A DNA stretch of 64,000 bases from Bacteroidales bacterium. Its GTDB lineage: Bacteria > Bacteroidota > Bacteroidia > Bacteroidales > UBA932. The notes under the pieces were generated by a model that searched no databases, had not been told where the DNA came from, and saw nothing but the letters and a program-made list of their open reading frames with translations. The DNA is taken from NCBI GenBank assembly GCA_017620335.1, contig JAFZQO010000012.1:62001-126000 (forward strand), written 5' to 3'. Shown piece after piece: positions 975 through 48,566 of this stretch. The position numbers and the translations under genes were made by a program. Each line of letters opens with the position of its first letter. Position 1 is the stretch's first letter.

Positions 975-1961
975 TCACTTCTCTACCAGGACGGTCATAC
1001 CGGGACGCAGGCCTGTCACGGACTCGGAAGGTACTGCCCTGACCTCGAAGGTCTTGGCATCGTACTGGTCGGTCTCCTTGGTGGCCTTCCAGGTGGCATA
1101 GGACTCGCGGACCGACATATAGTTGACTGTAGCCTTGAGCTTCGCTCCGTCGAGGGCGGGGACGCTGAGGGTCAGCTCGTCACCGACGTTCATCCCGTGG
1201 AGCTGGTCCTCGCGGATGTTGAAGGTGAACCAGATGTCCGAGAGGTCGGTCACTGTCATAACCGGGGAGCCCTCACCGACAAGTTCGCCCTGCTTGGGAT
1301 AGATGTTGGAGATGACTCCGTCGGCCGGGGAGGTAAGGTATAGCTGCTCGAGATAGGAGTCCACTTCCCGGACGGCGCCTTCGGCCTGGCGGACCAGGGC
1401 CGCGGCAGCGGCCTTGTCCTCGTCGCGGGCGCCGTTCATGGTCATCTCGTACTGACTCCTGGCAGCGTTTGCCTGGGCGACCGCGGCGTCATACTTAGCC
1501 TTGGTCTCATCGTATTTCTGAGCGGCGATGACTTTCTGTTCGTAGAGGCTCTGGACGCGCTCGAAAGACTTCTTCATTACGTCCTCCTGGACAAGGGCCT
1601 GCTGCCAGAGTTCGTAGGCGCCGGCAATCTGCTCCTGGCGGGCGCCGTTGCGCGCCTTGGCGCTCTGGGCCTGGGCTGCGCTTCGCGCTGCCTGGGCCTG
1701 CGCCAGCTTTGCGCGCACCTGGGGAGAGTCGATGAAGGCGACGGTGTCGCCCTTGCTCACGGTCTGGCCCTCACGGCAGTAGATCTCGGTGACGTGGCCC
1801 GGGACCATACAGGATATGCGGTATTCGGAGGCTTCGGCCTCGCCCTGGATGGCGTGCGGTTTAGGTTTGCTGACCAGATAGCCTACGAAGGCTATGATCA
1901 ATACGATGGCCACGAGGGCGGCAAGCCCTATGACCAGATTGTAATTCTTCTTCTTTTCCAT
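975..1961 (-). CDS. HlyD/YbhG-family periplasmic adaptor (membrane fusion) protein
   Basis: 328 residues. An N-terminal anchor helix (about residues 9-31) is followed by the first half of a biotinyl-lipoyl domain, a long Ala/Gln/Lys-rich coiled-coil hairpin (about 80-200), the second lipoyl half (LTSPADGVISNIYPKQGELV, about 209-228) and beta-barrel domains. It should link the inner-membrane ABC permease downstream (1 nt away) to the TolC-like channel upstream (12 nt away). The length and split lipoyl domain match the YbhG/YhiI group. The substrate cannot be inferred. Confidence 0.9.
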   Translation of the reverse strand: MEKKKNYNLVIGLAALVAIVLIIAFVGYLVSKPKPHAIQGEAEASEYRISCMVPGHVTEIYCREGQTVSKGDTVAFIDSPQVRAKLAQAQAARSAAQAQSAKARNGARQEQIAGAYELWQQALVQEDVMKKSFERVQSLYEQKVIAAQKYDETKAKYDAAVAQANAARSQYEMTMNGARDEDKAAAAALVRQAEGAVREVDSYLEQLYLTSPADGVISNIYPKQGELVGEGSPVMTVTDLSDIWFTFNIREDQLHGMNVGDELTLSVPALDGAKLKATVNYMSVRESYATWKATKETDQYDAKTFEVRAVPSESVTGLRPGMTVLVEK

Positions 1962-1973
1962 ATCGTTGTCTCT

Positions 1974-3560
1974 TTACTTGTTATCACTGATCTCTCCCTG
2001 GGCCTTGCGCAGGTTTGCGGCCGCCATCTGAAGTTCCGTTCCGGCGTCGATACACTCGGAACGGGCCTGGAGCCAGGCGGTCTGGGCTGCCATCACGGTG
2101 TCGGCGTCGATAACGCCGGCTTCGAAGCCGACCGTGGCGCTGCGGAGGTTCTCCTCGGCGCTGTCAAGGTTCGAGGTAGCCATCCGGAGTTTCTCGAGGG
2201 CCTCGTCAAAGAGCTTCTCCTGCTGGGTGACCTGCAGGAGGATCAGCTCGCGGGCGTCTTGGTACTGGTCTTGGTAGAGGGTCGCCTCGGCCTTGGCCTT
2301 TCGGTACTTGTTGGTTGCTTCCATTCCGTGGAAGATAGGGATGTTGACCATCACTCCGGCGTTGAGCATTCCGCCGTTCCAGCTGTGGCTCAATCCGTGG
2401 AAGGAGTTGGGGTTGGTCATAACATAGTTGGCGGTCAGGGCAACCTGCGGAAGCATATCCGCACGGGCGATCCTTGCTTTCTTCTCGTAGATACCTGAAG
2501 CCAGGGAGAGGCTGCGGGTCTCGGGGCGGGAGGCATAGACGCTCTCGATGTCCTTGCCGGTTTCGCGGGACGGGACGGGAATGAGTTCGTCGCTCTCGTC
2601 TGCGAGGACAATCTGCGATTCAAGCGGCAAGCCGATGCGCTTGCAGAGCAGCATCTTGGCCAGCGTCAGGCCGTTGCGCGACTTGGTGAGGAGCATATCG
2701 GCTTCGTTCGACTTGACCTTGACCTGCAGGGCGTCTGCCTCGGTCATCACGCCTTCGTCGACCGAGACGCGGACGTCATGTTCGAGCTGGTGGAGGAGAT
2801 CGGCATAGGATTCAGCGAGGCGCTCCTTGGCAGCGATGCTGACAATCTGCCAGTAGGCCTGATCTACATCGACGATGATGTCGGCGTACTCCTGGTCGTA
2901 CCGGCTGCGTGCCAATTCCTCGGCCAGTGCGGCCATCTGGTTGGAATATACTATCTTACCGCCCATAAACACAGGCTGCTGCAGGGAAACGACGCCTGCA
3001 TACACGTTATGGATGTCGATATGCAGGGCATCGTCGATCTGCTGTCCTATGGCATTGATCGGATCGGCGATTCCGGGTGCCTGGATTCCACTGAAGTCCA
3101 TCTGCTGGAGCATTCCGAGCACGGTCTGCCACATCGGGCTGCCCATATACTCGGCCGCAAGGGCGGGGTTGGTCATTATCGCGGTCTGGAGCTGCGTCAT
3201 TGCGCCCTGGGCCGCAGCGTTCATCTGGGCGCCGGCGGCGGCGAAGGCACCGTCCAGCGCAGCCTGCGCCGTCGTGCCCATACCCGTTATCGCAGCAGAC
3301 TGCGCGTCGCTCACGAGCACCAGGTCGCGGTTGTTATATTGATAGGTACCCGTCACCGACAGGTTCGGGAAATAGTTGGCAAGTGCAACCTTCCTGTCGT
3401 AGCCTGCCATCTCGACCTGGGTGCGGGCCTGTGTCAGGGTCTTGCTGTTCACGACTGCCATCCTGTGGCAGTCCTCCAGCGTCAGTGTCTGCTGCGCGGC
3501 CGCCCAAAGCGGCATCAGCAGGCAGGCAAGCGCCGGAATTGTCATCATTATCCTTTTCAT
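1974..3560 (-). CDS. TolC-family outer membrane efflux protein
   Basis: 528 residues with a signal peptide (MKRIMMTIPALACLLMPLWAAAQQ) and the TolC opening LTLEDCHRMAVVNSK. Long heptad-rich helical regions follow in two repeats (about 195-300 and 400-520), as in trimeric outer-membrane channel tunnels. A low-complexity Ala/Gln/Met stretch lies at about residues 90-130 and is longer than in typical family members. It is the first gene of the efflux operon TolC-adaptor-permease, and a divergently transcribed AraC regulator probably controls it. The ATG at 3560 was chosen because the signal peptide starts there directly. Confidence 0.92.
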   Translation of the reverse strand: MKRIMMTIPALACLLMPLWAAAQQTLTLEDCHRMAVVNSKTLTQARTQVEMAGYDRKVALANYFPNLSVTGTYQYNNRDLVLVSDAQSAAITGMGTTAQAALDGAFAAAGAQMNAAAQGAMTQLQTAIMTNPALAAEYMGSPMWQTVLGMLQQMDFSGIQAPGIADPINAIGQQIDDALHIDIHNVYAGVVSLQQPVFMGGKIVYSNQMAALAEELARSRYDQEYADIIVDVDQAYWQIVSIAAKERLAESYADLLHQLEHDVRVSVDEGVMTEADALQVKVKSNEADMLLTKSRNGLTLAKMLLCKRIGLPLESQIVLADESDELIPVPSRETGKDIESVYASRPETRSLSLASGIYEKKARIARADMLPQVALTANYVMTNPNSFHGLSHSWNGGMLNAGVMVNIPIFHGMEATNKYRKAKAEATLYQDQYQDARELILLQVTQQEKLFDEALEKLRMATSNLDSAEENLRSATVGFEAGVIDADTVMAAQTAWLQARSECIDAGTELQMAAANLRKAQGEISDNK

Positions 3561-3581
3561 TTCTATCTTGTTTTGTACTTA

Positions 3582-3600
3582 TTTTCCGGGGGTCGGAAAA
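3582..3600. promoter_or_regulatory. Perfect small palindrome in the tolC leader
   Basis: TTTTCCG (3582-3588) pairs with CGGAAAA (3594-3600) around a 5-nt loop, 22 nt upstream of the tolC start. It could be an operator half-site pair or an mRNA hairpin. Only the palindrome is seen; the function is inferred. Confidence 0.35.
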
Positions 3601-3665
3601 GAACAAAAACACAGCCAAAAAGGACGGATTATTGACATGTTTGTAGACCTTTTGGGACGGTTTTA

Positions 3666-3720
3666 TTGTCAAAATTTCGCTTTTGTTGAAATTAGTGAAA
3701 ATTTTTCGACCTTTTGACAA
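3666..3720. promoter_or_regulatory. Inverted repeat, candidate operator of the divergent AraC regulator
   Basis: TTGTCAAAA (3666-3674) and TTTTGACAA (3712-3720) form a perfect 9-bp inverted repeat with a 37-bp AT-rich spacer. It lies in the intergenic region between tolC (-) and the AraC gene (+). AraC proteins commonly bind spaced half-sites in such divergent regions. The right arm lies about 50 bp before the AraC start codon. Confidence 0.45.
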
Positions 3721-3771
3721 TGGACGACGGAGTATTTTTCGCATCTTTGCAGAGGCCACAACACTACTGTC

Positions 3772-4701
3772 ATGACAAACTCATTTCACGAACTGGACCT
3801 GGGTGATCTCAGGAAGATATTCTCTTCAGCACAAGGGGAAAACCTCTCCGACGCCATTTTTATGGCAGAGCAATACTACGAGGAGAGGATGGAGCCGTTT
3901 ATGAAGGAGCCCTGCCGCTTCAACTGCTATGTCGCACTGTTCTGCATCGACGGCGACTTCACCGTCGAGATAAACCTGAAGCCGGTCCGGGTCAGGAAGA
4001 ACTCCCTGGTTATCGTTATCCCGGGATCGATATGCCGAGTATCCGAAGTGGACATTGACAAACTCGGGAAGCTCCACGCCGTTGTGATTGCTGTGTCGAA
4101 AGAGCTGATGTCGACCATCCGCTTCGACTTCAACAGCCTTTTCAACGAGAGCGTGGCGGCAATCGACAACCCCTGCATCACCCTCGACGAGAAGAGCCAC
4201 GGAATCTGCAAGAAGTATTTCGATATCGCCAAAGACCTCTACATCTCGGATCTTCCAGGCTCGAGGGACGCCCTGCGGTATCTGGCTTCGTCGATATTCT
4301 ATATGCTGGGGTCGATGTGGACCTCCCAGATCAAGGAGGCCCAGGCCCATAACCCGCGCCGCACCCCCCGCTCCCAGACTGTGATGGACAGTTTCCTGAA
4401 ACTGGTGGCGGAATACCACAATTTAGAAAGGAAGGTGGGCTTCTACGCCGACAAGCTGTGCCTTACGCCGAAGTATCTCTCGAAACTGATAAAGGAAGCA
4501 AGCGGAAGGTCGGCTCCGGACTGGATAGACTCGTTCGTAATACTCGAGGCGAAGAATATGCTGAAGTACTCGGACATGCCGGTGAAGGAGATCGTTTACT
4601 TGCTCCATTTCCCCAATCAGTCGGTCTTTTACAAGTTTTTCAAGACCCATACTGGATTGACTCCCAATGAGTACCGCAACGGGGAGGATAAATCGTTTTA
4701 A
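3772..4701 (+). CDS. AraC-family transcriptional regulator
   Basis: 309 residues. The N-terminal part (about 45-110) is a cupin-like sensor region. The C-terminal 100 residues are a double helix-turn-helix: the first HTH is around KLCLTPKYLSKLIKEASG (about 225-242), and the second ends in the family signature FYKFFKTHTGLTPNEYRN. It is transcribed away from the TolC-adaptor-permease operon with 211 bp between the starts, which suggests it controls that efflux system and perhaps itself. The ligand is unknown. A CATCTTTG box at 3742-3749 is a weak match to the -7 element. Confidence 0.9.
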   Translation: MTNSFHELDLGDLRKIFSSAQGENLSDAIFMAEQYYEERMEPFMKEPCRFNCYVALFCIDGDFTVEINLKPVRVRKNSLVIVIPGSICRVSEVDIDKLGKLHAVVIAVSKELMSTIRFDFNSLFNESVAAIDNPCITLDEKSHGICKKYFDIAKDLYISDLPGSRDALRYLASSIFYMLGSMWTSQIKEAQAHNPRRTPRSQTVMDSFLKLVAEYHNLERKVGFYADKLCLTPKYLSKLIKEASGRSAPDWIDSFVILEAKNMLKYSDMPVKEIVYLLHFPNQSVFYKFFKTHTGLTPNEYRNGEDKSF

Positions 4702-4718
4702 GATTTTTCGATTTTTGC

Positions 4719-4749
4719 TTGGAAAATTAAAAATAGTAAGCTACTTTTG
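4719..4749 (+). promoter_or_regulatory. Bacteroidetes-type promoter with no gene behind it
   Basis: TTGG at 4719-4722 and TACTTTTG at 4742-4749 match the -33 and -7 (TAnnTTTG) elements with 19 nt between them. No coding sequence follows on this strand; a terminator follows 57 nt later. See the small RNA entry. Confidence 0.5.
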
Positions 4750-4754
4750 CATCG

Positions 4755-4848
4755 GACATTCGAAATTTCATTTCGTGTCTATTTGTTAAGTTCGTTTTAT
4801 ATACGGAGACCGCGCTTTTGGGGAATGGCGCGGTCTCTATCTTTTTAT
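4755..4848 (+). ncRNA. Candidate small RNA between the AraC gene and the deoxynucleoside kinases
   Basis: The predicted start is about 6 nt after the -7 box at 4742-4749 and the end is the terminator at 4806-4848, giving roughly 90-95 nt. A small hairpin CGAAAT-TTC-ATTTCG lies near the 5' end, and the terminator hairpin forms the 3' end. The only open frames are trivial. The alternative is that this is merely the terminator of the AraC gene with a chance promoter match. Confidence 0.4.
4806..4848 (+). terminator. Strong rho-independent terminator
   Basis: GAGACCGCGC (4806-4815) pairs perfectly with GCGCGGTCTC (4828-4837) around a 12-nt loop, followed by a T-rich tract. It ends plus-strand transcription just before the convergent kinase gene. 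Confidence 0.85.
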
Positions 4849-4855
4849 TTGACTG

Positions 4856-5473
4856 TTACCCCGGGAAAAGGCCGAAGAGTTTGGCGTCGATCATGTCGGT
4901 GACTTTCTCGAAGTCCTCGGGCTTGTTGGCGAACTTGACGTTGTCGGCGTCGACGATGAGTAGGTTGCCCTTGTAGCCGGCGATCCACTGCTCGTAACGG
5001 TCGTTGAGGCCGGTCAGGTAGTCGATGCGGATGCCTTTCTCGTACTCGCGGCCACGCTTCTGGATCTGGGCGACGAGGTTGGGGATGGAGGACTTGAGGT
5101 AGATCAGAAGGTCCGGCGGATTGACCATGGACATCATCAGGTCGAAGAGGTCGGTGTAGTTCTCGAAGTCGCGGGTGCTCATCAGGCCCATCGCGTGGAG
5201 GTTCGGCGCGAAGATGCGGGCGTCCTCGTAGATGGTGCGGTCCTGGATGATGACCTCGTCGGTCTTGGAGATGTCCACGACGTCCTTGAAGCGCTTGTTC
5301 AGGAAATATATCTGGAGGTTGAACGACCAGCGTTCCATATCCTCGTAATAATCGGCGAGATAGGGGTTGTAGTCCACCGACTCGAACTTGGGCGTCCAGC
5401 CGTAGTGGGCTGCGAGCATCTTGGTGAGGGTGGTCTTTCCGCTTCCTATGTTTCCGGCGACTGCGATATGCAT
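4856..5473 (-). CDS. Deoxynucleoside kinase (copy 1)
   Basis: 205 residues, full length for bacterial dAK/dGK-type kinases. P-loop GNIGSGKTT lies at about residues 8-16, the ERS-equivalent motif QDRTIYEDARIF at about 80-91, and a LID-like region with QIQKRGREYE at about 143-152. It phosphorylates deoxynucleosides from the salvage pool in the cytoplasm. A paralogue lies directly upstream with 35 nt between. Substrate preference (dA, dG or dC) cannot be assigned by eye. Start at 5473 because MHIAVAGNIGSGKTT begins the fold. Confidence 0.9.
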   Translation of the reverse strand: MHIAVAGNIGSGKTTLTKMLAAHYGWTPKFESVDYNPYLADYYEDMERWSFNLQIYFLNKRFKDVVDISKTDEVIIQDRTIYEDARIFAPNLHAMGLMSTRDFENYTDLFDLMMSMVNPPDLLIYLKSSIPNLVAQIQKRGREYEKGIRIDYLTGLNDRYEQWIAGYKGNLLIVDADNVKFANKPEDFEKVTDMIDAKLFGLFPG

Positions 5474-6204: not shown

Positions 6205-6906
6205 ATGCTTAACCTTGAACATTTCCTCTGCAATTCCGTGTTCCGGGAGAACGTATGGCTGGTCCGTGATGGAGACGCCTGCGTGCTGGTCGACCCCGGC
6301 TTCACCAACGACCGGGAGTTCGCGCCTTTTGAAAACTTCATCCGCAGGGAAGGCCTCCGCGTTGAGGCGATACTCATCACCCACGGACATTATGACCATA
6401 TCCACGGAGTCAGCCGCTGCCTGGACCTGCTCGGGGACGTCCCCGTGTACATGCATCCGGACGACGTGGAACTGATCGGGATGGCGGAGGATATGGCGGC
6501 GCCTTACGGCGGTTGTCCGGCGCTGTCGTTCGACACCGTGGACGTCGTCGACGGCCAGGTCCTGGACCTCCTGGGCCGGCAGTGGACGGTGATCTCCACC
6601 CCGGGGCACAGCAAGGGCTCGGTATGCTATCACTGTCCTGCCGAGAAACTGCTGTTCAGCGGGGATACGCTCTTCGCCGGCACCATAGGCCGCACGGACC
6701 TGCACGGGGGAAGTTACGACAGCCTGATCGTGTCCATAATGGACAAACTGATGGGCCTGGACGGGGACACGACTGTCATTTGCGGTCACGGCCATACCAC
6801 AACTATCGCCGACGAGCGCACGCATAATCCTTTCCTCCAGCCCTGGGGCGAGAAGGAGCAGGACGGCATCGACTGGGATGCGGACGGAATAGAACTCAAT
6901 GGATAA
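6205..6906 (+). CDS. MBL-fold metallo-hydrolase (glyoxalase II-like)
   Basis: 233 residues. The metal-binding motif HGHYDHIHG lies at about 60-68, followed by STPGHSKGS (about 132-140), GDTLF (about 152) and GHGHTTTIADE (about 192-202): the full set of beta-lactamase-fold metal ligands. The small size and layout match cytoplasmic glyoxalase II-like hydrolases of unknown substrate common in Bacteroidetes. It overlaps the uvrA start by 8 nt, so the two are co-translated. Confidence 0.88.
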   Translation: MLNLEHFLCNSVFRENVWLVRDGDACVLVDPGFTNDREFAPFENFIRREGLRVEAILITHGHYDHIHGVSRCLDLLGDVPVYMHPDDVELIGMAEDMAAPYGGCPALSFDTVDVVDGQVLDLLGRQWTVISTPGHSKGSVCYHCPAEKLLFSGDTLFAGTIGRTDLHGGSYDSLIVSIMDKLMGLDGDTTVICGHGHTTTIADERTHNPFLQPWGEKEQDGIDWDADGIELNG

Positions 6907-9775
6907 AGGGGAATACATCCACATAGAAGGCGCGAAAGCGCACAACCTCAAGGGCGTGGACGTCAGCATCCCGCGCCGGAAGTTCGTGGTCATCACGGGC
7001 ATAAGCGGCAGCGGGAAGTCCTCCCTGGCCTTCGACACGCTTTACGCCGAAGGCCAGAGGCGCTACATGAACACCCTTTCCCCCTACGCCAAGCATTTCA
7101 TGGGCATACTCGAGAAGCCGGAGGTGGAGAACATCACCGGCCTGAGCCCCATCATCGCCATAGAGCAGAAGACCACCGTCGGCAATCCCCGCTCCACCGT
7201 GGGAACCATCACGGAGATCTACGATTTCCTGCGCTTGCTGTACGCCCGCGCGTCTCGGGCATATTCCCCCGTGACGGGGCAGGAGATGGTGCGCTACACC
7301 GACGCGCAGATCGTGGACCTGATCATGACGAACTACGCCGGGCGGAAGTGCATACTGCTCGCGCCGCTCGTGCGCGGCCGCAAGGGCCACTACCGCGAGC
7401 TCTTCGAGCAGCTGCGCAAGCGCGGTTACACGCAGGTCCGAATCGACGGGGAGATAGTCCCGCTGAACGAGGTGGACGCCCTGGACCGCTACAAGGGGCA
7501 TTTCATCGAGTTGGTGGTGGACAAGCTCAAGCCCGGCTCGGGCGACGCCCTGCGCATCCGCGACTCCGTGGTGAACGCCCTGGCCATGGGCAAGGGCGCG
7601 CTGGCCATCCTTGACATCGAGTCAGGGGAGCTGCACCATTACTCGAAGCATCTGGTGGACCCGGAGAGCGGCATCTCCCTTCAGGAGCCGGCGCCGCACT
7701 CCTTCTCCTTCAATTCCCCGGAGGGTTACTGTCCGCACTGCAAGGGCCTTGGCATGATCGTGGACGTGAACATGGACACCATCATCCCGGACCGGAGCGT
7801 GAGCATCGCGAACGGGGGGATAGTCCCGCTGGGGCGGCAGCGCGAGAACCGCAAGTTCGAGATCGTGCGGGCCATCGCCCGCAAGCATGATTTCTCGCTG
7901 TACGAGCCCATAGCCGCCATCCCTGACGACGCGGTGTCGCTGCTGGTCTTCGGGTCGGACGAGCTGTTCCGCATCGGCGACGGGCCGCAGAGCGAGATGG
8001 CGTCCTGGGAGGGCATAGTGGAGGACATTGACGAGAAGGTTGTCTGCCCGGTCTGCCACGGGACGCGGCTCAATGAGAACGCAAGTTACTTCAAGATAGA
8101 CGGCAAGACCATATCCGATGTGTCCGCAATGGAGATTTCGGAGCTGCAGGCCTGGCTTAAGACGCTTCCGGAGAAGTTCTCCGACAAGGAGAAGGCCATC
8201 GCCAGGGACATCCTCAAGGAACTTGACGACAGGGTGGACTTCCTGATGGACGTGGGTCTGGAGTACCTGTCGCTCGACAGGCCGACGGGTTCGCTGTCCG
8301 GCGGCGAGAGCCAGCGCATCAGGCTCGCGACGCAGATAGGCTCCAAGCTGGTTAACGTCATCTATATCCTTGACGAGCCGTCGATCGGCCTGCACCAGCG
8401 CGACAACCGCAAGCTCATCGCTTCGCTGAAGAGGCTTCGCGACGAGGGCAATACCGTCATCGTCGTCGAGCACGACCTCGAGACGATGCTCTCGGCCGAC
8501 TGGCTCGTCGACGTCGGGCCCGGCGCCGGTGAAGAAGGCGGCCGCATCTGCTACAGCGGCCCCGCGGTGACAGAATCGGCGAAGGAGGAGGGGTCCGGGC
8601 TGAAAAACCGTGCCACCCTCGGCATCGTAAGAGGGGGGGACCCAAGCTTGCTTGGGGGGGGTCCTGCGAAGCATGACGTTTTTCAGCCCGGAACCCCTCC
8701 GACTGAAGCCGGTTCGGTCACATTGAAGTTCCTGGAAGGGAAGGATTCGATACCGGTGCCGAAGAGGCGCAGGAGGGGCAACGGCCTGACGGTCGGGGTG
8801 CGCGGCGCCTGCGGCAACAACCTCAAGGACCTCGACGTGGACTTCCCGCTCGGGACATTCATCGGCGTGGCCGGCGTCAGCGGCAGCGGCAAATCCAGCC
8901 TCGTGAACGAGACCCTCATGCCGGTGCTCATGCACAAGCTCTACAACTCCAAGGCCCACCCCCTGCCGTACCGTGAAGTCGTCGGCATCAAGAACATAGA
9001 CAAGCTCATCGAGATAGACCAGAGCCCCATCGGGCGCACGCCCCGCTCCAACCCCGCCACCTTCACGGGCGTCTTCAACGACATCCGAGCCCTCTTCGAG
9101 GATACCCCGGACGCCAAGGTCCGCGGCTTCAAGGCGGGCCGGTTCTCCTTCAACGTCCCCGGGGGCCGCTGCGAGGAGTGCAAGGGAGCCGGCATCAAGG
9201 TCATCGAGATGAACTTCCTCCCTTCTGTCAACGTCGTTTGCGACCAGTGCCGCGGCAAGCGCTACAAGGAGGACACCCTCGCCGTCCACTACAAGGGCAA
9301 GGACATCAACGACGTCCTCGAGATGCCCATCTCCGAAGCTTACGAGTTCTTCAAGGGCATCCCCAAGATAGCCCAGAAACTCAAGGCCATGGTGGACGTC
9401 GGCCTTGGCTACGTCCACCTCGGCCAGTCCGCCGTGACGCTCTCCGGCGGAGAGAGCCAGCGCATGAAGCTCGCCGCCGAGCTCTCCCGCAAGGCCACCG
9501 GCAATACCCTCTACATCCTCGACGAGCCTACCACCGGCTTGCATTTCGAGGACATCAAGGTGCTGCTCGGCGTCCTCGACCAACTCGTGGAGCAGGGCAA
9601 CACCGTCATAATCATCGAACATAACCTCGACGTCCTCAAGAGCGTCGATTACCTGATAGACATGGGACCGGAAGGCGGCGCCCGGGGCGGGCGCATAGTC
9701 TCGTGCGGCACGCCCGAGGAAGTGGCGGCCGACCCGGCCTCTGTAACCGGACAATACTTAAAGGAAATCCTATGA
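6899..9775 (+). CDS. uvrA: Excinuclease ABC subunit A, carrying an in-frame palindromic repeat
   Basis: 958 residues. UvrA is the damage-sensing ATPase of nucleotide excision repair. Both ABC halves are intact: Walker A GISGSGKSS (about 36-44) and GVSGSGKSS (about 658-666), signatures LSGGESQRIRLA (about 465) and LSGGESQRMKLA (about 849), and zinc cysteines in YCPHC/CPVCHG and CEECKG/CDQCRGKRY. An extra segment of about 38 codons (8587-8700, residues about 563-601) sits in the linker between the first ABC half and the region leading into the second. It is encoded by a repeat also found in ispE. The reading frame is preserved. The gene overlaps the next one by ATGA. Confidence 0.96.
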   Translation: MDKGEYIHIEGAKAHNLKGVDVSIPRRKFVVITGISGSGKSSLAFDTLYAEGQRRYMNTLSPYAKHFMGILEKPEVENITGLSPIIAIEQKTTVGNPRSTVGTITEIYDFLRLLYARASRAYSPVTGQEMVRYTDAQIVDLIMTNYAGRKCILLAPLVRGRKGHYRELFEQLRKRGYTQVRIDGEIVPLNEVDALDRYKGHFIELVVDKLKPGSGDALRIRDSVVNALAMGKGALAILDIESGELHHYSKHLVDPESGISLQEPAPHSFSFNSPEGYCPHCKGLGMIVDVNMDTIIPDRSVSIANGGIVPLGRQRENRKFEIVRAIARKHDFSLYEPIAAIPDDAVSLLVFGSDELFRIGDGPQSEMASWEGIVEDIDEKVVCPVCHGTRLNENASYFKIDGKTISDVSAMEISELQAWLKTLPEKFSDKEKAIARDILKELDDRVDFLMDVGLEYLSLDRPTGSLSGGESQRIRLATQIGSKLVNVIYILDEPSIGLHQRDNRKLIASLKRLRDEGNTVIVVEHDLETMLSADWLVDVGPGAGEEGGRICYSGPAVTESAKEEGSGLKNRATLGIVRGGDPSLLGGGPAKHDVFQPGTPPTEAGSVTLKFLEGKDSIPVPKRRRRGNGLTVGVRGACGNNLKDLDVDFPLGTFIGVAGVSGSGKSSLVNETLMPVLMHKLYNSKAHPLPYREVVGIKNIDKLIEIDQSPIGRTPRSNPATFTGVFNDIRALFEDTPDAKVRGFKAGRFSFNVPGGRCEECKGAGIKVIEMNFLPSVNVVCDQCRGKRYKEDTLAVHYKGKDINDVLEMPISEAYEFFKGIPKIAQKLKAMVDVGLGYVHLGQSAVTLSGGESQRMKLAAELSRKATGNTLYILDEPTTGLHFEDIKVLLGVLDQLVEQGNTVIIIEHNLDVLKSVDYLIDMGPEGGARGGRIVSCGTPEEVAADPASVTGQYLKEIL
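8587..8700 (+). repeat. Intragenic palindromic element, copy 1 (in uvrA)
   Basis: Outer arms GGAGGGGTCCGGGCTGAAAA (from 8587) and their complement ending at 8700 pair over about 21 bp with one bulge. They enclose a 79-bp core (8604-8682) that is identical at 77 of 79 positions to the core in ispE. The core can fold into three hairpins: CCCTC/GAGGG, CCCAAGC-TT-GCTTGGG and GTCCTGC/GCATGAC (one mismatch). It contains G7 (8633-8639) and G8 (8654-8661) runs. It is translated without a stop as part of UvrA. Confidence 0.9.
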
Positions 9776-47582: not shown

Positions 47583-48566
47583 TTATCGTGGGAAGAGTCC
47601 GTACACGGCGGAGCCGCTGCCGGACATGGAGGCGTATACTGCGCCTTCGTCGTACAACGCCTGCTTGGCGGCGGCGACAGCCGGGTATTTCGCGAAAACA
47701 GTTGTCTCAAAGTCGTTGACGAGGAGGCCGCGCCACTCCGCGACGGGGCGCGAAAGCGCCTCGCGGAGCGGCAGGGCGCGGCTCCCGGCCGCCTCCCGCG
47801 GCACGATGCCGCGGTAAGCGTCGGCCGTGCCGACGTGCACCCCTTCCGGCACGCTGACGCGCAGCTCATAATCCGAAAGGTCGATGTCATAGGGCTCCAG
47901 CACTTCTCCGCGGCCCGTTCCGAGCATCGGGCGGTTATGGACGAAGAAGGCGCAGTCGCTGCCCAGGCGGGCGGCGTACGCCGCGAGCGCGGCGTCGTCG
48001 AGGCCGAGCGCGAAGAGCTCGGAAAGCATCTTCAGCGCGAAGGCCGCGTCCGCCGAGCCGCCGCCCAGCCCCGCCCCCACCGGGGCGGTCTTCTCCAGGA
48101 ATATCTTCACCGGCTGCAGCCCGAACTCCCCGTCCAGCAGCCCGTATGCCTTGACCGTCAGGTCCCCTAACGGATCCCAGTCCACCCCCTCGGCCCTCGC
48201 AATCGTCACCATCACCTTCCCGTCTTCCCTTATCCCCTGAACTATCTGAGCCGCAGTTCCGGAGGTGCCAACCTCGGAAAACCGTGCCACCCTCGGCATC
48301 GTAAGAGGGGGGGACCCAAGCTTGCTTGGGGGGGGTCCTGCGCAGCAGGACGTTTTCCGAGGCTGGACACCTCCGGACGAAGGCTTTGAATATTTCTCGA
48401 AAAGAGCGGCGGAAGTGCGGCTGAAATCGTCGCCGGAAATGATTTCGAGGGTATCGTGAATGCCATGGTACGGCACGAACAGCGTCTCGATGTCGTGATA
48501 GCCGTCGGAACGCTTCCGCAGGACGCTCAGTCCCATGTTGACCTTGACATTCGGATACGTGATCAT
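47583..48566 (-). CDS. ispE: 4-diphosphocytidyl-2-C-methyl-D-erythritol kinase, carrying an in-frame palindromic repeat
   Basis: 327 residues, about 40-50 longer than usual. GHMP kinase opening NVKVNMGLSVLRKRSDGYHD (about 5-24), ATP-binding PVGAGLGGGSADAAF (about 152-166) and a C-terminal MSGSGSAVYGLF. It phosphorylates CDP-ME in the non-mevalonate isoprenoid pathway. The insertion (48258-48377, residues about 64-103, including SKLGSPPLTMPRVARFSEVG) is the reverse-strand reading of the element also found in uvrA. Its position between the N-terminal strands and the first domain suggests a surface loop. The start at 48566 overlaps sufD by ATGA. Confidence 0.93.
   Translation of the reverse strand: MITYPNVKVNMGLSVLRKRSDGYHDIETLFVPYHGIHDTLEIISGDDFSRTSAALFEKYSKPSSGGVQPRKTSCCAGPPPSKLGSPPLTMPRVARFSEVGTSGTAAQIVQGIREDGKVMVTIARAEGVDWDPLGDLTVKAYGLLDGEFGLQPVKIFLEKTAPVGAGLGGGSADAAFALKMLSELFALGLDDAALAAYAARLGSDCAFFVHNRPMLGTGRGEVLEPYDIDLSDYELRVSVPEGVHVGTADAYRGIVPREAAGSRALPLREALSRPVAEWRGLLVNDFETTVFAKYPAVAAAKQALYDEGAVYASMSGSGSAVYGLFPR
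48258..48377 (+). repeat. Intragenic palindromic element, copy 2 (in ispE)
   Basis: Arms TCCGGAGGTGCCAACCTCGG (from 48258) and a complementary arm ending at 48377 pair with small bulges. They share no sequence with the arms of the uvrA copy. The 79-bp core (48278-48356) differs from the uvrA core at two positions; in this copy GTCCTGC-GCA-GCAGGAC is a perfect stem. G7 (48307-48313) and G8 (48328-48335) runs are conserved. The plus-strand orientation is the same as in uvrA, but ispE reads it from the other strand. Confidence 0.92.

Follow-up and report, generated by a model that had tools for sequence, protein, structure and literature searches.

Palindromic elements lying in frame within housekeeping genes form a dispersed and probably mobile family in Bacteroidales

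Main

Rickettsia palindromic elements, which also occur in Wolbachia, are palindromes of ~100–150 bp that interrupt conserved protein genes in frame but do not destroy them, and orthologues share their insertion sites, according to excerpts of PMC2229807, PMC10969869 and PMC3767692. At some of these sites, different species carry different element types (PMC3767692, excerpt). Bacterial miniature inverted-repeat transposable elements (MITEs), among them Correia/NEMIS, ERIC and YPAL, are described in part of PMC2229807 as short and non-autonomous, with inverted repeats and known in-frame fusions. Repetitive extragenic palindromic (REP) elements of the GTAG and CGTC types are dispersed palindromes of 20–40 bp with a tagged end, some of them intragenic, and the CGTC type has no known transposase, as far as the excerpted text of PMC3733652 goes. 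Here we describe a palindromic element that occurs twice in a 64,000-nucleotide (nt) stretch of a Bacteroidales genome (the window; contig JAFZQO010000012.1), once in uvrA and once in ispE. It is probably one of a family of palindromes of ~115–150 bp, mobile but non-autonomous, whose copies in genes are kept only if they are in frame and free of stop codons. The source genome is designated G000; other G-codes denote compared genomes and L-codes fetched loci.

Results

The two copies in the window share a core of 79 bases (8604–8682 and 48278–48356; 97% identity, E = 1e-32), in agreement with the 77/79 identity given by the original prediction, which had been made from the window alone. A 20-mer of the core, allowing up to three mismatches, occurs twice in the window against 0.00 expected. 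Each core sits within a longer palindrome (8587–8700, 114 bp, and 48258–48377, 120 bp) whose arms differ between the copies, and both palindromes fold more strongly than dinucleotide shuffles (z = −6.0 and −6.1, respectively). Copy 1 has its plus strand on the gene strand of uvrA (6899–9775, plus strand, 958 amino acids (aa), an NCBIfam UvrA equivalog match) and lies in the linker between two matched UvrA halves; the open reading frame (ORF) runs through it and gains 38 codons, which bears out the earlier claim of about 38 added codons with neither stop nor frameshift. Copy 2 has its plus strand opposite to ispE (47583–48566, minus strand, NCBIfam ispE matches), which is likewise open through the palindrome and gains 40 codons. 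The orthologous ispE site is filled in G000, G186 and G097 and empty in G133, where IspE has 283 aa versus 327 aa with the palindrome, a difference of 44 residues.

Elsewhere in G000, BLAST gave 14 matches at E ≤ 0.001, which represent 13 copies because a single interrupted copy accounts for two of them (L007 and L014), one for each half. Searching with a covariance model of 46 copies found 18, of which 13 are of type A and five of type B. All 13 type-A copies lie within open ORFs of housekeeping type. The copies in uvrA, truB, fmt, ribF and the gene of a radical-SAM UPF0004 enzyme have a matched stretch or domain on each side; those in atpG (an ATP synthase subunit), an M16 peptidase gene and the gene of a PP-loop enzyme, read as tilS, are inside one match; and those in dnaX and trmB follow a domain match, the trmB copy having lost its right half. 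The remaining hosts are ispE, aroK (shikimate kinase) and pcrA (a UvrD-type helicase). The strict codon-usage test alone places eight of the 13 in genes, the other five resting on ORFs and domain matches, and it left unclassified 34 loci that lacked the type-A motif where it was expected. An equivalent test puts no type-B copy of G000, of five, inside a gene. Type-B copies of G113 lie in frame within RecG and RsmA, and also within ORFs matched as DnaX and RlmB; DnaX and RlmB-like genes hold copies both in the group of G000 and in G113. Two copies, in ispE of G097 (L103) and pcrA of G000 (L007, 1400–1554), have a core split by ~80 bases of other sequence within a gene that is still open, and are nested in-frame insertions.

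Comparison of orthologous sites shows filled and empty states. In GcvPB, a conserved VRHYTN stands at residue 49 in G338 and G081, which have no element, and at 84–97, in the same open frame, in five genomes that have one (G113, G166, G193, G299 and G240); G215 carries a degraded element (VRHYTN at 99) and G274, G323 and G297 none (52–57). The interval of RecG from DEQHRFGV to MTATPIPRT measures 27–30 residues in G323, G193, G274 and G240 and 71–72 in G113, G215, G166 and G299, with the core inverted in G113, and all RecG stretches compared are open. For RsmA the corresponding lengths are 29 residues in G166 and G299 versus 68 in G113. In these three proteins every translated stretch keeps its frame to either side of the site. 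Empty sites were also found in an RsmB/RsmF-like gene (G193 and G338), at the intergenic site of L214 (five species), at the site of L203 (G166, where the left flank is 99% identical) and at a site between convergent genes (G186 and G133). Between convergent genes of G000 we further observed a 3.7-kb insert with several ORFs (L261, about 1537–5277, contig C30), at a place where G097 has the element and G186 and G133 have neither; the insert was rejected as a copy of the element, being absent from the matches of the genome-wide search of G000.

Reading frames were counted in 242 distinct elements from the pooled fetched loci, using the codon usage of 300 bases on each side; this count, like those of arm mismatches and pseudoknot pairs below, covers only elements that fit the sequence pattern and whose paired arms scored 12 or more. 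In 65 cases the element was in a gene and open, in none was it in a gene with a stop, and in six the flanks were coding on the same strand but out of frame; 11 elements lay between opposite genes, nine at an edge, and 151 were classed as other. The in-frame share (65/71, with one third expected) has a nominal P of 1e-24, which is too small because orthologous copies were counted separately and are not independent. The GTDB loci alone (n = 116) gave 26 open, none with a stop, four in another frame, six between opposite genes and 80 other. With respect to the gene, 29 of the 65 open copies run in the same direction and 36 against it, and five of the six frames are used, the unused one being the frame that contains the type-A TAA. 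Within genes, then, it is probable that only in-frame and stop-free copies survive.

The original prediction had gone further, proposing that the element, if mobile, is selected to stay open in several frames. This was not supported: the uvrA core is open in four of six frames (one carries a TAA) against a mean of 2.6 in shuffles (P = 0.22), and because of this result we see no sign of multi-frame selection. Retention of only those copies that land in an open frame is enough to explain the openness. The frame counts bear equally on the idea that the element is an intron-like RNA removed from the mRNA, or a sequence bypassed by the ribosome, so that the protein lacks the insert. A strong, apparently pseudoknotted fold and a conserved core within essential genes would suit such an element, but removal would not require in-gene copies to be in frame and stop-free, and the antisense majority of these copies has the same strand asymmetry (see below). 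On this evidence of frame and orientation we set self-splicing and bypass aside as very improbable.

The predicted architecture is a copy-specific long stem, P1 (arms of ~20–30 bp), around a conserved core that consists of hairpin P2 with the loop NCCCNN, a spacer with T(A/G)A, a strand pairing with the P2 loop, and hairpins P3 and P4. In copy 1, all on the plus strand, the copy-specific left arm of P1 (8587–8608) is complemented by the right arm (8678–8700); P2 (8610–8624) has the conserved loop ACCCTC at 8615–8620, supported by pair counts; GAGGG at 8631–8635 is the proposed pseudoknot partner of the loop bases CCCTC (8616–8620), as judged by covariation; and P3 (8639–8656) and P4 (8661–8677) are variable yet paired. 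The P2 hairpin of copy 2 lies at 48284–48298 (loop 48289–48294) and its GAGGG strand at 48305–48309, again on the plus strand.

RNAalifold recovered P1, with changes on both sides at all 17 pairs, and formed a nested helix between the loop bases CCCUC and GAGGG, omitting P2; taken together, P2 and this helix would make a pseudoknot. Among 241 elements, loop and partner were ACCCTC:GAGGG in 207, GCCCGT:ACGGG in 12, ACCCAT:ATGGG in nine, GCCCGC:GCGGG in seven, ACCCGT:ACGGG in three, GCCCTC:GAGGG in two and ACCCTC:GGGGG in one. In an alignment of 30 sequences (A3), its rows picked to represent the loop types, 99.3% of the pseudoknot cells pair and 43 are doubly changed. The paired percentage, the number of doubly changed cells and the covariation score were each reached by none of 500 shuffles; sliding by 1–3 columns reduced pairing to at most 63%, and the covariation score exceeded all slid controls. 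Sequence covariation thus supports a predicted pseudoknot in the core, which had escaped the original prediction. Against it count the two of five measures that did not rise above shuffles in A3 (three pairs with a double change, seven pair types), and the invariance of three of the five pseudoknot pairs: CCC and GGG were fixed by the search pattern, and because of this the support comes from two co-varying pairs.

Within A3, columns 7 and 21–23 also co-vary, the first loop base A going with TAA in 16 of 16 rows and G with TGA in 13 of 14; a tertiary contact between loop and spacer is possible. The UvrA copy of G043 has its P2 stem changed to TCC:GGA. An Rfam scan of the window returned two tRNAs only, and no match to the element at the gathering score. 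Across 15 loci, Rfam at E ≤ 1 gave four weak matches, all far under threshold, of which one overlaps the element (L139, MIR839, 25.4 bits versus 200).

Mismatches in the arms are distributed asymmetrically between the strands. On the strand with the ACCCTC loop, the 241 elements have 140 G–T versus 58 A–C and 167 G–A versus 13 C–T mismatches. The direction is the same where the gene is parallel to the element (G–T 16 versus A–C 9; G–A 37 versus C–T 2) and where it is antiparallel (26 versus 13; 40 versus 2), although the G–T bias inside genes is modest (P = 0.017). Because both gene orientations agree, the tolerated pairs belong to the element's own strand rather than to the host mRNA. The outer arm ends hold about half of the G–A mismatches, so part of the G–A bias may be an alignment edge effect.

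By flank comparison, 11 of the 13 type-A copies of G000 have a filled counterpart in one or more of G133, G097 and G186; only fmt and trmB have no filled orthologue in these three genomes. Most type-A copies of G000 are therefore old, and recent transposition is an unlikely origin for the 11. Arms at the same site are more similar (0.69) than arms at different sites (0.55; P = 5e-6), and the copies were therefore inherited. Between these inherited arms, orthologous cores agree in orientation in 11 of 24 pairs and are opposed in 13; the pairs share sites in this count and in the motif count and are not independent. The motif differs at 2 of 552 bases across orthologous pairs versus 1721 of 9260 in the flanks, and at 1 of 299 in the 13 inverted pairs, figures that overstate conservation and understate decay because copies without the exact 12-base motif GCCACCCTCGGC were dropped beforehand. 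Copies absent from the site list were omitted too; among the interrupted or decayed copies left out are those of pcrA and trmB in G000, dnaX and ispE in G097 and an rsmE-type gene in G186.

Since inversion changes the peptide, the peptide is not the conserved thing; it appears to be the folded DNA or RNA that is kept. An insert whose peptide served a function in the host protein would hold its frame and be inherited site by site, as observed, but opposite core orientations at one site alter the peptide (13 of the 24 pairs, such as RecG of G113 versus G166), five frames are in use and empty orthologues exist. This explanation is already contradicted and scarcely credible.

The element was found in 14 of 41 relatives, own genome included, and in none of 16 genomes of other families covered by that search. 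Within the genus, 44 of 200 genomes, again with G000, had a match at E ≤ 1e-9. Model searches under stricter filters, which can miss weak copies, found it class-wide in G000 only (295 genomes) and order-wide in five of 344 genomes, namely G000, one other genus of its family and three other families. Scanning GTDB genomes by pattern gave at least 119 stretches; among the 80 matches listed, all are named Bacteroidales or Bacteroidia, and many titles refer to ruminant stomachs. No match came from plasmids or phages by BLAST, or from IMG/VR by exact pattern. The possibility that the core occurs nowhere else, named in the original prediction as one of two refuting cases, is ruled out by the 18 copies in G000 and the many across the genus, and its proposal of a dispersed protein-coding palindromic family in Bacteroidales, analogous to Rickettsia palindromic elements, is upheld, with insertion seen against empty orthologous sites.

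The distribution also speaks to a structured RNA or DNA signal useful to the host, such as a terminator, regulator or protein-binding site, that lies in genes incidentally. Intergenic copies exist, one of them exactly between two convergent stop codons, as such a signal would allow; against this, sites and copy number vary among species, many related genomes have no match, and core orientation at shared sites is near random. We consider a host signal improbable.

Several further observations weigh against a family of mobile elements kept by selection on the fold. No target-site duplication is constant; short direct repeats are possible at two sites and none is clear at the others. Within 2.5 kb, no protein recurs in more than five of up to 119 loci (clusters unannotated), and an autonomous partner gene beside the element was rejected, the largest neighbour cluster spanning five loci. 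Core similarity is slightly higher within a genome (0.81) than between genomes (0.78), and P3 is identical in seven G000 copies and differs in other species; because these seven share one P3, there are hints that gene conversion instead of selection could underlie the uniform cores. Nor do the arms all have one origin: two copies in G894 share only eight inner arm bases and a third differs, and one arm in GcvPB, taken as its reverse complement, matches 15 nt of the empty G081 site. The last match prompted the idea that arms are inverted copies of the target, which we rejected as a general rule: arms are absent from the empty convergent-gene, L203, RecG and L214 sites. In G864, from another family, seven copies at different places have common arms and core, which shows that the core can carry its arms along; this sharing also disfavours target-derived arms, although outer arms may in some copies, such as those of G894, be made from the target.

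Some of these observations must be read together with the possibility of a classical MITE or REP-like repeat, mobilized by a transposase encoded elsewhere in the genome (for example, of Y1/RAYT type acting on the folded strand) and novel only in its host group. Size, inverted repeats, lack of autonomy and the presence of both intergenic and intragenic copies agree with this, and the strand asymmetry would fit a single-stranded DNA (ssDNA) substrate. However, the inside of the element is conserved and its ends are not, and the lack of a constant duplication at the sites compared and the low recurrence of neighbouring proteins count here too, the latter within a search of neighbourhoods and not of whole genomes for transposases; likewise, no parent insertion sequence turned up near the loci, whole genomes not having been searched for one. 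We regard this alternative as possible, though not favoured, and continue to prefer a distinct family retained in genes by frame.

UvrA was compared within the genus (30 UvrA loci fetched, 61 genomes searched). Four exact core strings matched, among the 30 loci, the window's own and one other, L078, where 2617–2737 is a diverged copy at another place in the UvrA of G043; G133 and G097, closer species outside this sample, have the element at the same UvrA site as G000. A second UvrA-like fragment in G000 (contig C54, 35325–36065) is 83% identical to residues 712–958 and is perhaps contaminating sequence in the metagenome-assembled genome (listed contamination 4.12). In other species (L107, L116 and L128) the IspE linker carries a different in-frame insert, mutually similar among them (PALG.TQPQR...GRGRTAPP) and apparently of another repeat family; this linker looks like an insertion hot spot. 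In G813, of another genus, a similar TTAATCTAC sequence stands ahead of type-B copies L430 and L431 and may be a target or part of a larger unit.

Discussion

Beyond the original prediction, our comparisons add a putatively pseudoknotted core, a strand asymmetry, inverted cores at shared sites and the old age of most copies. In the mechanism we propose, an insert in a gene would be translated as ~40 residues that are tolerated, and not useful, in loops and linkers of essential proteins. The element would be selected or refreshed as a folded single strand, either RNA or ssDNA of the plus strand, which a trans-acting enzyme would recognize, and the core would invert through exchange between the two arms. 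Taken to its full extent, this would make a new class of mobile element: the selected unit would be a pseudoknotted single strand (RNA or ssDNA) inside a stem that stays complementary despite drift, moving or being refreshed via the folded strand, with the core flipping in old sites and housekeeping proteins across the genus carrying switchable inserts of ~40 residues. We offer that larger proposal tentatively and think it rather unlikely as a whole.

The family provides a large second case of protein-coding palindromes, in uncultured gut Bacteroidales. It numbers hundreds of copies, its sites occur both filled and empty in related species, its fold is defined and its core is found in either orientation. 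It makes testable what moves such elements, how essential enzymes tolerate them and whether inversion recodes proteins. It is also a warning for annotation: predicted housekeeping proteins carry ~40 extra amino acids, and stretches of UvrA, DnaX, RecG, IspE, GcvPB and others in carrier genomes are not ordinary protein sequence.

In intragenic invertons, inverted repeats flank a segment whose inversion recodes a protein. The Bacteroidales element resembles them in that a segment between inverted repeats occurs in both orientations (13 of 24 orthologous pairs, between species only), but it is a dispersed repeat with no known invertase. From REP elements it is set apart by size and structure, with four stems and ~115 bp or more (tags were not searched for). 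It shares terminal inverted repeats with MITEs, although these vary between copies: unlike in MITEs, the ends vary, the core is conserved and no constant target duplication appears at the sites compared. To our knowledge, the mechanism of the protein-coding palindromes of Rickettsia and Wolbachia is unknown. The Bacteroidales element differs from Rickettsia palindromic elements in host phylum, all 80 listed GTDB matches being named Bacteroidales or Bacteroidia, and in having no conserved peptide, with five of six frames and both orientations in use; its putative pseudoknotted core and core inversion are features not mentioned for Rickettsia palindromic elements in the excerpts of PMC2229807, PMC10969869 and PMC3767692. 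By analogy of behaviour, and not by sequence comparison, it would nevertheless work like a Rickettsia palindromic element: a dispersed palindrome of 100–150 bp inserted in frame and without stops in conserved protein genes.

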